A DNA stretch of 64,000 nucleotides from a candidate division FCPU426 bacterium (GTDB lineage Bacteria; Oederibacteriota; Muellerivitia; Muellerivitales; Muellerivitaceae), in assembly GCA_027452205.1 (NCBI GenBank), contig DAIDGV010000019.1:1-64000 (forward strand). Reading direction: 5' to 3'. Shown here in pieces: positions 2,184-9,171 of the stretch. Position 1 is the first letter of the stretch, and each line of letters starts with the position of its first letter. Position numbers and translations under genes: made by a program. Below the pieces are notes generated by a model. It was not told where the DNA came from. It worked only from the letters and a program-made list of their open reading frames with translations, and did not search any database.

Positions 2184-3467
2184 GTGAAAGTCAGTGTCAA
2201 CAATGTTTCGGGCTGCACCAAAGAAGTGACCGTCGAGGTGCCGACAGAGACCGTTCAAAATCAGATGGACGGTATTTATCAAAAGATCTCCCAAGAAGCC
2301 AAGATCCCTGGTTTCCGCAAGGGCAAGGTGCCCTTGGATGTGATCCGCAAGCAATACAAGTCCGCGGCCCGGGAAGAAATGGTGCATCACCGTTTGCCTG
2401 AGTTCTTCCGCACGGTCCTGGTCGAACAAAAGCTCGACCCGGTAGCCCAACCCCAGATCACCCATTTGCAATTTGAAGAGGGAACCCCTTTGAAGTTCGT
2501 GGCGACGGTCGAGATCAAGCCAACCTTCGACCTGAAAGAATACAAGGGTTTGAAGGTGAAGAAGGCCAAGGTCGAAGCCGACGATGCGGATGTGGAGAAA
2601 GCCTTGAACAACATGCGCGATCAAATGGCCCAATTGGTGCCGGCGGAAGGCCGCGCGGCCCAAAAGGACGACTGGGTTTTGATCGATTTTGAAGGCAAGA
2701 TCGACGGGAAAGCGTTCGAGGGTGGCAAAGCCAACCGGTATCCTGTCTTGCTGGGAGCCCAGAACATGCTGGCCGATTTTGAGGCTAATATCGTTGGGTT
2801 GAAAGCGGGCGACTCCAAGACCTTCAAAATCACTTTCCCGAAGGACTATGGTAAGGATGACATCGCCGGTAAAGAGGCTGAGTTCACCATTAAAGTGCAT
2901 GAGATCAAGGCCAAAAAGCTGCCGGAGTTGAACGATGAGTTCGCTAAGGACGCTGGTCGGGCTGAAAACCTGGCTGAGTTGAAAGAAAAGCTGAAGGCCC
3001 AGGTCAAACAAAGCAAAGAGAACGAACAACGGGCCAAGATGGTTGAACAGATCGGCGAAAAGCTGATCGGGGACCACAAATTCGATATTCCGGCGTCGCT
3101 CATCAACATGGAACAACAGCGCTTGGTGCAGCAGGGCGTGGAACGTCTTCGCAGTCAAGGTATTGACGCCAATACGCTGCCGGACGAGCAGAAGAAGCAG
3201 TTCGTCGAGGGTCTGCGTCCGGTTGCGGAAAAGAACGTGCACTTGGCTTTGATCGTCGAGAAGATCACCGCGGCGGAGAAGATCAAGACCGACGAAAGCG
3301 ATATCGACGCTTATTTCGAGAAGGTGTCCGGAAACATCGGCCAACCGGCGGATGTGGTGAAACGGTATGTTCAGCAACAGGGCAATTTGGATTCGATCAA
3401 AGATTGGATCCAATATGAAAAGACCCTGGACTTTTTGATCACGCAGTCCAAGATTGAGCAAGTCTAA
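2184..3467 (+). CDS. tig: trigger factor, ribosome-associated chaperone and peptidyl-prolyl isomerase
   Basis: Trigger factor binds at the ribosomal exit tunnel and shields nascent chains. The 427-residue product has the N-terminal ribosome-binding domain, including a GFRKGKVP signature near residue 45 that docks on ribosomal protein L23. A central FKBP-type PPIase domain (about 150-240) and a helical C-terminal arm domain follow. The GTG at 2184 is chosen because AAGGAG lies 7 nt upstream (2172-2177). It is the first gene of a classic tig-clpP-clpX cluster, with clpP 22 bp downstream. A long antisense ORF mirrors this gene and is not real. Length and domain order are normal. Confidence 0.96.
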   Translation: MKVSVNNVSGCTKEVTVEVPTETVQNQMDGIYQKISQEAKIPGFRKGKVPLDVIRKQYKSAAREEMVHHRLPEFFRTVLVEQKLDPVAQPQITHLQFEEGTPLKFVATVEIKPTFDLKEYKGLKVKKAKVEADDADVEKALNNMRDQMAQLVPAEGRAAQKDDWVLIDFEGKIDGKAFEGGKANRYPVLLGAQNMLADFEANIVGLKAGDSKTFKITFPKDYGKDDIAGKEAEFTIKVHEIKAKKLPELNDEFAKDAGRAENLAELKEKLKAQVKQSKENEQRAKMVEQIGEKLIGDHKFDIPASLINMEQQRLVQQGVERLRSQGIDANTLPDEQKKQFVEGLRPVAEKNVHLALIVEKITAAEKIKTDESDIDAYFEKVSGNIGQPADVVKRYVQQQGNLDSIKDWIQYEKTLDFLITQSKIEQV

Positions 3468-3489
3468 ACACTAGCCACTGGAGGCTGAT

Positions 3490-4089
3490 ATGGCTTTAAT
3501 TCCGATCGTCGTTGAACAGACCAACCGCGGGGAGCGGTCCTACGATATCTATTCCCGTTTGCTAAAGGACCGTATCATCATGCTGGGGACCCCCATCAAC
3601 GATGACGTGGCCAATACCATCATCGCCCAATTGCTCTTCCTGGAATCGGAAGATCCGGAGAAGGACATCAACCTTTACATCAATAGCCCCGGCGGCGTCG
3701 TGACCTCGGGGTTGGGCATCTATGACACGATCCAATTCATGAAGGCGCCGGTGTCCACCATTTGCGTGGGGCAGGCCGCCAGCATGGGCGCGGTGCTTTT
3801 GGCCGCGGGAGCCAAGGGCAAGCGCTTCGCTTTACCGAATGCCCGTATCATGATCCACCAGCCGTCGGGCGGGGCCCAGGGGCAAGCCACGGATATCGAG
3901 ATCCAAGCCCGTGAGATCCTCAAGATCCGTGAGAAATTGAACAAGATCCTGGCGGACCATTGTGGACAGCCTTTGAGCCAGATCGAGAAGGACGTGGAGC
4001 GGGATTACTTCATGTCCGCCGAGGAAGCCAAGCAATATGGCTTAATTGATGATATTCTTACTAAGCGTCCCGAAACCAAGAAGAAGTAA
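3490..4089 (+). CDS. clpP: ATP-dependent Clp protease proteolytic subunit
   Basis: ClpP is the barrel-shaped serine peptidase that degrades substrates unfolded by ClpX. In this 199-residue protein the catalytic triad is visible: Ser98 in GQAASMGA, His123 in MIHQP and Asp172 in ERDYFMS. Length is normal and no long propeptide is present. The start at 3490 has GGAGG at 3480-3484. The gene sits between tig and clpX, with clpX starting 13 bp after its stop, so stoichiometric co-expression with ClpX is expected. Confidence 0.98.
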
Positions 4090-4102
4090 CCAAGGAACCG
4101 AC

Positions 4103-5368
4103 ATGGCCGGCGAAAAAGACAAAACCTCATTCTTACGCTGCTCGTTCTGTGGGAAGACCCAGGATGAGGTCAAGAAGCTCGTCGCCGGTCCTACGGTCTA
4201 TATCTGCAATGAGTGCGTGTCCCTTTGTAACGACATCCTGAAAGAAGAGGATAAGTCGGAGCCGAAGGGGACGTCCGCTAAACAGAAGCTTTCCGTTCCG
4301 AAACCCGTTGAGATCAAGGAAGTCCTGGATGAATACGTGATCGGCCAAGAGAAGGCCAAACGGGTCCTTTCGGTGGCGGTCCATAACCATTACAAGCGTT
4401 TGACGGTCAAGACGGGGCCGGACGATGTAGAGCTTCAAAAAAGCAATGTGATGCTCATCGGACCTACCGGCGTGGGAAAGACCCTTTTAGCCCAGACCTT
4501 AGCCCGTATCTTGGACGTTCCTTTTGCCGTTGCGGATGCCACCACCCTGACCGAGGCGGGTTATGTGGGTGAGGACGTCGAGAACATCATCTTGAAGCTT
4601 CTTCAAAACGCCGAGTTCGACGTGCAGCGCGCTGAACGGGGCATCATCTATATCGATGAGATCGACAAGATCAGCCGCAAGAGCGAGAATGCCAGTATCA
4701 CCCGGGACGTTTCCGGGGAAGGCGTGCAGCAAGCCCTTTTGAAGATCGTCGAAGGAACTGAGGTCAACGTGCCGCCCCAGGGCGGTCGGAAGCATCCCCA
4801 TCAGGAATATATCAAGGTCGATTCGAGCAATATCCTTTTCATCTGCGGCGGAGCCTTTGTCGGCCTGGAAAAACTGGTCGAGAGCCGCTTGGGCCGCCGA
4901 AGCATCGGTTTCAAGGGCGAAGTATCCATGCGTCAAGAAAAGAAACTGGGCGAATTATTCGATCAAGTGCAGCCGGAAGATCTTATCAAGTTCGGGTTGA
5001 TCCCTGAATTCATCGGTCGCTTGCCGGTGGTGGCTGCCCTTCATGAACTGGACGAGGCTGCTTTAGTGAAGGTCTTGACCGAACCAAAGAATGCTTTGAC
5101 CAAGCAATATCAACGCTATTTCGAGATCGAGAACGTGAAGCTCAAGTTCACGCCTGAAGCCCTGACGGCGGTGGCTAAAGAAGCCATCAAGCGCCAATCC
5201 GGTGCTCGTGGTTTGCGAGCTATCCTGGAAGAAGTGATGATGAACCTCATGTATGAGATCCCTTCGCGCAAGGACATCAAAGAGATCGTTGTGACCGAAG
5301 GCGCCATCAATAAAAAAGAAGACCCTATTCTTGTCTATCAAAAGGGTCGCGGGGAAAACACCGCCTAG
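4103..5368 (+). CDS. clpX: ATP-dependent Clp protease ATP-binding subunit ClpX
   Basis: ClpX is the AAA+ unfoldase that recognises tagged substrates and feeds ClpP. The 421-residue protein has an N-terminal zinc-binding domain (Cys13, Cys16, Cys35, Cys38), Walker A GPTGVGKT (120-127), Walker B IIYIDEID, a GYVG pore loop, an RKH loop and an IGF loop for ClpP docking. The reading frame is open further upstream, but the ATG at 4103 gives the normal ClpX N-terminus and has AAGGA at 4092-4096. It closes the tig-clpP-clpX run. No lon gene follows. Confidence 0.98.
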
Positions 5369-6241: not shown

Positions 6242-6267
6242 AACATTGTGAAACATTTCACAATGTT
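6242..6267 (+). promoter_or_regulatory. perfect palindromic operator 1 (Rex/CRP-type)
   Basis: A perfect 12-bp inverted repeat (arms 6242-6253 and 6256-6267) with a 2-bp CA centre. The core TTGTGAAACATTTCACAA (6246-6263) equals the established Rex operator pattern TTGTGAA-N4-TTCACAA. The same core also contains TGTGA-N6-TCACA, the CRP-family half-site arrangement. It ends 2 bp before the -35 box of the serine operon promoter. Confidence 0.8.
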
Positions 6268-6269
6268 TA

Positions 6270-6297
6270 TTGACACGAATATGACCTTAGTTATACT
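6270..6297 (+). promoter_or_regulatory. sigma-70 promoter of the aminotransferase-serA operon
   Basis: A consensus -35 TTGACA (6270-6275) and a -10 TATACT (6292-6297) are 16 bp apart. Transcription would start near 6304, giving a leader of roughly 118 nt. The promoter is sandwiched between two near-identical palindromes, so a repressor bound at both would cover both boxes and the start site. Confidence 0.8.
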
Positions 6298-6305
6298 AAC
6301 GCTTA

Positions 6306-6327
6306 CTTTGTGAAACATTTCACAAAG
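6306..6327 (+). promoter_or_regulatory. palindromic operator 2 (Rex/CRP-type)
   Basis: A 10-bp inverted repeat (6306-6315 with 6318-6327) has the same 18-bp core, TTGTGAAACATTTCACAA (6308-6325), as operator 1. The two core centres are 62 bp apart, about six helical turns, so both face the same side of the DNA. It overlaps the predicted transcription start, a repressor position. Confidence 0.78.
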
Positions 6328-6421: not shown

Positions 6422-7576
6422 ATGCTTAAGAAATACGTCATGGCCCCCGGGCCGACCCCTATCCCTGCTGAAGTTTTGATGGAAGCCGCTCAGCCGATCA
6501 TTCACCATCGCACTCCCCAATTCCAGGCCATTTTTAAGGCGGCCAACGAGGGGTTACAGCTCTTTTTCCGCACCAAGAACCATGTCATGACCTTTGCCTC
6601 GGTCGGGACCGGGGCCATGGAGTCCGCTATCGCCAACTTGACCTCGCCGGGCGAGAAGATACTGGTGGCTTCTTCGGGTCATTTTGGCAACCGCTGGGCT
6701 GAGATCGCCAAGGCCTATGGGGTGCAAGCCGAGCTCTATGAATGCGAATGGGGTAAAGCGGTCGATGCCGAGGAAGTGCGCAAACGTCTCAAGGTTTCGC
6801 CGGAGGTCAAAATCGTCTTCACGACCTTGAACGAGACTTCTACCGGTGTTTTGAACGATATCCAAACTTTGACCAAAGTCGTACACGAATGCGGCGCCAT
6901 CATCGTGGTGGACGCTATTTCGGGCCTGGGCGCGGCGCCTTTCGAGACCGATGTCTGGGGTGTGGATGTGGTCTTGTCGGGTTCGCAAAAGGGTTTCATG
7001 ATCCCACCGGGCTTGGCCTTTGTGGCCATCAATCAGGCCGGTATTGACAAGAATAAGGCCTCCAAGAATCCCCGGTTCTATTTCAGCTATGAGAAGGCCA
7101 TCAAGAAACTGGTCGAAGAAAAGATGCCGGATACCCCTTGGACCCCGGCCATTTCGCTCATCATCCAATTGAAAAGAGCTTTAGAACTGATCCACCAAGA
7201 AGGTATGGAAAATGTTTGGAAGCGTCACGCGGCCATGGCGAAAGCCACCCGCGAAGGTGTGAAGGCTTTGGGTTTGGAACTGTTCGCCCCTACCGCCCCT
7301 TCGCCGGCGCTGACTTCGGTCAAGACGGTCGAGGGTGTGGATAGCGGTCTCATCAACAAGACCTTCCGTGATACTTACGGCATTAGCATTGCCGGGGGCC
7401 AAGGCAAGGAAAAGGGCAAGATCTTCCGTTTGGGCCATTTGGGTTATGCCGATGGATCCGATGTGATCTTGGAGATCGCCCGGCTTGAAATGGTCCTTCA
7501 CAAAGTGGGCAAGAAAGTCGCCCTGGGTTCGGGTGTTAAGGTCGTTGAAGAGATCCTCTTAGCAGAAAACTTGTAA
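6422..7576 (+). CDS. class V aminotransferase, probable phosphoserine or alanine/serine-glyoxylate aminotransferase
   Basis: A fold-type I PLP enzyme of the SerC/AGAT/SPT family, 384 residues. The N-terminal YVMAPGPTPIP is the family substrate-loop signature. Lys190 in SGSQKG is the predicted PLP Schiff-base lysine, preceded by VDAISGLG with the ring-binding Asp. Its position directly before serA argues that it transaminates 3-phosphohydroxypyruvate to phosphoserine, as this non-canonical type does in several bacteria and archaea. Serine-glyoxylate activity cannot be excluded. The frame is open upstream to 6329, but ATG 6422 has AGAGG at about 6409-6413 and matches the family N-terminus; the longer form would start inside operator 2. 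Confidence 0.88.
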   Translation: MLKKYVMAPGPTPIPAEVLMEAAQPIIHHRTPQFQAIFKAANEGLQLFFRTKNHVMTFASVGTGAMESAIANLTSPGEKILVASSGHFGNRWAEIAKAYGVQAELYECEWGKAVDAEEVRKRLKVSPEVKIVFTTLNETSTGVLNDIQTLTKVVHECGAIIVVDAISGLGAAPFETDVWGVDVVLSGSQKGFMIPPGLAFVAINQAGIDKNKASKNPRFYFSYEKAIKKLVEEKMPDTPWTPAISLIIQLKRALELIHQEGMENVWKRHAAMAKATREGVKALGLELFAPTAPSPALTSVKTVEGVDSGLINKTFRDTYGISIAGGQGKEKGKIFRLGHLGYADGSDVILEIARLEMVLHKVGKKVALGSGVKVVEEILLAENL

Positions 7577-7587
7577 GGAGCCGAAGC

Positions 7588-9171
7588 ATGTTCAAAGTTC
7601 TCATCACGGACAAACTTTCCGATCTGGGGATGGCGGTCTTCAAAAAAGAGTCCGAGATCCAAACCGAAGAAATTATTGGTAAAACGCCTGAAGAATTGAA
7701 GGCGATCGTCGGTAAATACGATGGTTGGGTTATTCGCAGCGGGACTACGGTGACTGCGGACTTAATCGAGGCGGCCAAGAACCTGAAGGTGATAGGTCGG
7801 GCCGGGGTCGGGGTCGATAACGTCGATCTGGAGGCCGCCACGAAGCGCGGTATTATTGTCATGAACACGCCGGATGGAAATACCATCTCAACTTCTGAAC
7901 ACACTATTGCCATGCTCATGGCGATGGCCCGCAAGATCCCTCAAGCGCAACAGTCCCTCAAAGAGAAAAAATGGGAACGCAGTAAGTTCACTGGTTGCGA
8001 ATTGAACGAGAAGACCTTGGGCGTGGTGGGTCTGGGCCGCATCGGCACAAACGTGGCCCGCAAGGCAAAGGGATTGGGTATGCGTATCATCGCTTACGAT
8101 CCCTATGTGGATCCGGAAAAGAACAAGGGGCACGAGTTCGAGATCGTGACCTTGGATGACATTTTCAAGCGCTCGGACTTCATCACCGTTCACACGCCGT
8201 TAACAAAAGAAACGAAAGGTCTTATCAGCGCCAAACAGATCGCGATGATGAAAGATGGTGTTCGTTTGGTGAATTGCGCCCGCGGTGGAATCATCGACGA
8301 AATTGCCTTGTTCGATGCTTTGAAGAGCGGCAAAGTGGCCGGGGCTGCCCTGGACGTTTTCGAAAAAGAACCTCCCTTTGACAATCCTTTGCTCACCTTG
8401 GACAACGTGGTCTGCGTGCCTCACTTGGGAGCGGCTACTCAGGAAGCCCAGGTGAACGTGGCAGTCGTGGTCGCGGAGCAGATCGTGGAAGCCCTCAAGG
8501 GTGGTCGGGTGCGCAACGCGGTTAACATGCCGTCGCTGGACCCGAAGGTGCTCGAAGAATTGAAGCCTTACCTGAATTTGGTGGAAAAAATCGGTTCTTT
8601 CCATTCTCAACTGGCTGAATCCTTCATTAAGAAGATCGAAGTGGAATACAGCGGGGAAGTTTCCAAGTTCGATACCCGCCCCCTCACTTTAAGCTTGGTC
8701 AAGGGCATCCTGTCCAAGGGCATGAGCGAGTCGGTCAATTATGTGAACGCGCTCTTCATCGCCAAGGAACGGGGCTATGAGATCTCGGAAACGGTCAGCA
8801 ACAGCGTGGCCGATTATTCGTCCCTCATCAAAGTGACCGTCAAGAACGAGAAGGGTACCCATATTTTGGCCGGAACGGTCTTCGGCAAGACCGAGGTGCG
8901 TATCGTCAGCCTGGATGGTAATAACACCGACTTCACACCTGAAGGCAACATGATCTGGATGGCCCATGAGGACCGTCCAGGCATCGTGGGACACTTGGGC
9001 ACGGTTCTAGGCAATAATCATGTGAATATCGCCGGTCTTTATGTGGGCCGCCAAGCGGTAGGCGGCAAAGCCATCGCGATGGTTAACGTCGATAATGATG
9101 TGCCTGAAAAGGTCATGGCTGAATTGCGCGGTATCGCCCATATCCAAGACCTGAAGTTCATCAAGTTCTAA
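7588..9171 (+). CDS. serA: D-3-phosphoglycerate dehydrogenase
   Basis: SerA oxidises 3-phosphoglycerate to 3-phosphohydroxypyruvate with NAD+, the first step of serine synthesis. The 527-residue long form has the split substrate-binding domain, a nucleotide-binding domain with GLGRIG (148-153), the catalytic ARGGIIDE segment, an intervening allosteric substrate-binding-type domain, and a C-terminal ACT domain (about 450-527, starting near MIWMAHEDRPGI) that usually gives serine feedback control. ATG 7588 has AAGGAG just upstream and follows the aminotransferase by 11 bp. The pair is controlled by the Rex-type operators at 6242-6327 and closed by a hairpin terminator. Confidence 0.95.
   Translation: MFKVLITDKLSDLGMAVFKKESEIQTEEIIGKTPEELKAIVGKYDGWVIRSGTTVTADLIEAAKNLKVIGRAGVGVDNVDLEAATKRGIIVMNTPDGNTISTSEHTIAMLMAMARKIPQAQQSLKEKKWERSKFTGCELNEKTLGVVGLGRIGTNVARKAKGLGMRIIAYDPYVDPEKNKGHEFEIVTLDDIFKRSDFITVHTPLTKETKGLISAKQIAMMKDGVRLVNCARGGIIDEIALFDALKSGKVAGAALDVFEKEPPFDNPLLTLDNVVCVPHLGAATQEAQVNVAVVVAEQIVEALKGGRVRNAVNMPSLDPKVLEELKPYLNLVEKIGSFHSQLAESFIKKIEVEYSGEVSKFDTRPLTLSLVKGILSKGMSESVNYVNALFIAKERGYEISETVSNSVADYSSLIKVTVKNEKGTHILAGTVFGKTEVRIVSLDGNNTDFTPEGNMIWMAHEDRPGIVGHLGTVLGNNHVNIAGLYVGRQAVGGKAIAMVNVDNDVPEKVMAELRGIAHIQDLKFIKF

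Follow-up and report, generated by a model that had tools for sequence, protein, structure and literature searches.

Rex is a repressor that senses the NADH/NAD balance, and NADH dehydrogenase (nuo/ndh) is its classic target in many bacteria. Links between Rex and serine metabolism have also been described. The closest known system is that of Caldicellulosiruptor bescii, in which Rex was found by EMSA to bind at an operon for a class V aminotransferase and a phosphoglycerate dehydrogenase (Athe_2126); every Caldicellulosiruptor genome analysed (n = 14) retains the corresponding site, and log2 expression values of this operon were 0.57-0.63 higher in the rex deletion (PMC6391272, PMC8579813). 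The authors of these studies considered the role of this serA-operon target as not well understood (PMC6391272, PMC8579813). Another example is that of the Thermotogales, for which the Rex regulons are summarized as including a serine-pyruvate aminotransferase, read as serine utilization (Ravcheev et al. 2012, as cited in PMC6391272). In Clostridium thermocellum, the SerA-like dehydrogenase Clo1313_0586, an ortholog of the C. bescii protein, was identified by DAP-seq as a target of Rex, two sites being predicted for it (PMC8457756). The original prediction for the locus reported here, which regarded the serine operon as a Rex regulon member that had yet to be established, needs correction in this respect, since membership of such an operon is already published for Caldicellulosiruptor, and single genes of this kind for the Thermotogales (serine-pyruvate aminotransferase) and C. 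thermocellum (serA-like).

The locus lies in the window, the whole 64,000-nucleotide stretch of DNA that was analysed, directly downstream of genes for trigger factor, ClpP and ClpX in their usual order (2184-5368). It shares with C. bescii the two-gene core and the upstream Rex site, demonstrated there by EMSA and predicted here, but belongs to another phylum; in C. bescii a single site, 88 bp from the ATG, was tested and the operon has a third gene, whereas this locus has an identical site on either side of the promoter. As in C. thermocellum, a SerA-like enzyme is the target, here a predicted one, the clostridial consensus being TTGTTAA-N4-TTAACAA as compared with TTGTGAA-N4-TTCACAA here. 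The Thermotogales enzyme is comparable in being a Rex-controlled aminotransferase that acts in serine metabolism and differs in being interpreted, in the summary cited above, as serine-utilizing. Although this kind of regulation is already known, its probable occurrence in an uncultured candidate phylum related to FCPU426/Goldiibacteriota is new, as is the recurrent box-promoter-box layout. The features are the following.

6246-6263, no strand: distal predicted Rex operator TTGTGAAACATTTCACAA, exact match, 5' of the -35 hexamer; also in genomes G024 and G023, with a variant of it in families f11-f16
6270-6275, + strand: -35 hexamer TTGACA (promoter scan), kept in f1 and f2 relatives
6292-6297, + strand: -10 hexamer TATACT (promoter scan), kept in most f1 relatives
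6308-6325, no strand: proximal predicted Rex operator TTGTGAAACATTTCACAA, exact match, just 3' of the expected start; its position relative to the -10 hexamer is unchanged in 8 of 8 aligned f1/f2 upstream regions
6422-7576, + strand: class V aminotransferase that probably serves as phosphoserine aminotransferase (SerC function); no other gene of the genome matches the SerC model, and this one does so below threshold
7588-9171, + strand: SerA, D-3-phosphoglycerate dehydrogenase (TIGR01327 at 689 bits, cutoff 454)

The original prediction of two Rex-type palindromes around a promoter that serves a class V aminotransferase and SerA was accurate. The two 18-bp palindromes are identical, 62 bp apart and without mismatch to TTGTGAA-N4-TTCACAA, and the promoter scan placed TTGACA-16-TATACT between them (6270-6297; 11 of 12 consensus positions). 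Given the base composition, an exact match to the Rex pattern is expected 0.0099 times per 2.89 Mb genome and about 1e-6 times per 300 bp. A pattern search of the 2.89 Mb genome returned two exact matches, both at this promoter, and none for the reversed control pattern. A scan of the window at up to three mismatches yielded 5 sites against 4.0 expected, which is chance level, so that only the two perfect sites represent signal. At up to two mismatches, 12 matches were found in the genome as compared with 9 for the control pattern, and the two-mismatch sites were without signal; the sites with one mismatch, at C10:16309 and C12:97136, fall within coding sequence and were taken as chance. Each palindrome is a perfect inverted repeat, as a mobile repeat, a terminator or an RNA hairpin acting with no DNA-binding regulator would be, but no terminator-like call was made at either site, the distal copy is located 5' of the promoter, and the genome contains no other exact copy, the motif being kept with serA and nuoA in relatives. 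The genomic distribution thus refutes an origin of this type, whose probability we consider negligible.

Searches for the genes of candidate regulators detected both types, rex and members of the CRP/FNR family. The genome has a single rex gene (C12:184736), the product of which scores 269 bits against the NCBIfam Rex model, strongly matches Rex crystal structures and comprises a winged helix and an NAD(H)-binding domain, with a GAGHLG motif in its sequence. In addition, six CRP/FNR HTH proteins are encoded; inspection of their recognition helices classed five as FNR-like and one, the CRP-family protein C8:22561, as CRP-like, with the pattern RExxxR. The presence of the latter protein, and the fact that the palindrome core also fits the CRP-type pattern TGTGA-N6-TCACA (the sequence reads TGTGAAACATTTCACA), as had been pointed out initially, would be consistent with binding of a CRP/FNR-family regulator. 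However, four genomes that are 89-98% complete (G031, G033, G041 and G044) possess boxes and rex without any CRP/FNR HTH hit, genomes with CRP/FNR proteins but without rex have no boxes, and positions 7 and 12, which are free in a CRP site, are nearly fixed as A and T in the f1 and f2 boxes. Since the boxes track intact Rex and those four genomes lack a CRP/FNR-type protein, Rex rather than CRP is the likely regulator, as judged from genome sequences. The initial ambiguity between the two is resolved by distribution and site pattern, with the Rex alternative retained and CRP/FNR, which we now regard as very improbable, rejected.

The comparative analysis comprised 45 genomes of the phylum, which are not phylogenetically independent and whose assemblies are incomplete. 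In this set the exact motif was found at 15 places, 12 of which are upstream of serA or of the aminotransferase-serA operon; two of the remaining three are upstream of atpB (G026 and G028) and one is in phage-like sequence, while the reversed control pattern matched once. Wherever the DNA-binding wing of Rex is intact, the genomes examined have boxes upstream of serA. The proximal box occurs in all f1 and f2 genomes where the operon was found, always in the same position relative to the -10 hexamer, and several close relatives have this box only, so that it is probably sufficient. In families f8 and f9, the aminotransferase gene is not adjacent to serA, yet an exact box is found directly upstream of serA, and families f11-f16 have mostly two variant boxes (weak in G032) that are 85-88 bp apart and flank the promoter. 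Ten genomes carry the operon without a rex gene (G001, G012-G019 and G022), and no box was detected in any of them. Families f4 and f5 possess rex but no box at serA, and their Rex proteins are devoid of the wing motif FGxFGxRGxGY. In these proteins (L089-L094) the motif is changed from FGxFGRRGxGY to FGISGNKKGGY, and they may recognize another operator. The association of rex and box at the family level had a Fisher p of about 0.008. These data form a clean comparative case in which the presence or loss of the operator follows the Rex regulator and its DNA-binding wing. The original prediction of Rex control of the serine biosynthesis operon is thus supported by the rex gene and by the conservation of the sites upstream of aminotransferase-serA in relatives, and the motif is not a common repeat. 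G034 harbors two aminotransferase-serA operons (L061 and L109), each with paired boxes, which could correspond to a duplication or to strain mixture in the assembly.

Taken at the level of computation, the evidence covers the sites, the promoter, the rex gene, the conservation with serA, the co-occurrence with intact Rex and a second target, nuo. We consider it highly probable that the palindromes are operators for the Rex of this genome, and repression of the aminotransferase-serA operon would be released by NADH. The proximal box lies near +12 and the distal box near -50 relative to the expected start, so that Rex bound there would close off the promoter on either side. Rex dimers at one or both sites would prevent use of the promoter between them; as NADH rises, Rex-NADH would be released and the operon transcribed. 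The position of the sites and the analogy with other Rex proteins suggest that Rex would repress this operon and not activate it, that NADH would trigger its release and that the two sites would cooperate, and the physiological sense proposed for this control has the same basis. The resulting scheme is counterintuitive, since Rex, acting in its usual way, would let an NADH-producing enzyme increase when NADH is already high. Lineages that keep and lineages that lose the operator make it testable why Rex should control such a step. A broader proposal, namely, that Rex-serA is a deep and recurrent cross-phylum link with a conserved box-promoter-box layout, tying NADH-producing serine synthesis to the NADH/NAD ratio against canonical logic, perhaps through looping of two Rex dimers, is tentative and in our view rather doubtful as a whole. 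The serA boxes are spaced by 5.8-6.0 helical turns in the own family and order and by 8.1-8.4 turns in distant families, and the nuoA boxes by 7.8-8.0 turns; the spacing of about 6 turns at serA was seen in this genome and two relatives. Since spacing varies between families, cooperation between boxes on the same face of the helix is plausible in this genome and is not a phylum-wide rule.

Rex is described in the literature as an activator at some promoters, and the Thermotogales aminotransferase was read, as far as its cited summary goes, as a step of serine utilization, so that Rex might bind here mainly to activate, or the enzymes might run toward serine use and serve as an NADH sink, in line with the Thermotogales proposal. 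We consider this unlikely: the proximal box just 3' of the expected start occupies a repressor position, the operon holds the only SerC-like gene of the genome, and no glycerate kinase of the PF13660 type, the one glycerate kinase family searched for, was found in the genome. The nearest solved structures of the aminotransferase are serine-glyoxylate and serine-pyruvate enzymes; its gene adjoins serA, and its being the genome's only match to the SerC model, at a score below threshold, makes phosphoserine aminotransferase its likely function. A SerB-like HAD protein is also encoded, with a score under the family cutoff. A biosynthetic role of the operon is hence the better reading of these sequences, with serine most likely made from 3-phosphoglycerate. 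The closest named records of the aminotransferase are from metagenome-assembled genomes, the first being Proteobacteria bacterium Centralia_MAG_561 (77% identity; a doubtful label), followed at 50-53% identity by records that include candidate division FCPU426 and Goldiibacteriota.

Following the two operators at serA, the next-best noncoding sites of the genome are ATGTGAAATATTTCACAA and CTGTGAAAGATTTCACAA, an almost perfect pair of boxes 83 bp apart and upstream of nuoA. This pair, with a distance of 82-84 bp, is present in 9 of 9 genomes of the family and order. G025 (65% complete) has the nuoA boxes, and rex was not found in it. The two boxes ahead of nuoA, here and in the relatives, resemble the known Rex control of nuo/ndh, which is a respiratory, NADH-consuming target of the canonical type; serA, by contrast, is not. 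No box was found at the second nuoA-type gene of this genome (C17) nor at the nuoA genes examined in f11-f16, from which it follows that control of nuo is lineage specific. Exact Rex boxes just 3' of promoter-like sequence also precede atpB, encoding ATP synthase subunit a, in two genomes (L101:1501-1518 in G028 and L106:1501-1518 in G026); this genome has no such site at up to two mismatches, and a literature search for Rex together with ATP synthase and complex I returned no report. The predicted core Rex regulon of this uncultured phylum is small, consisting of the serine operon, complex I and, in some genomes, ATP synthase. The nuoA box pair of this genome (contig C24, about 337092-337192) is located between nuoA and a divergent trehalose-6-phosphate synthase-like gene, which may also be affected by these boxes.
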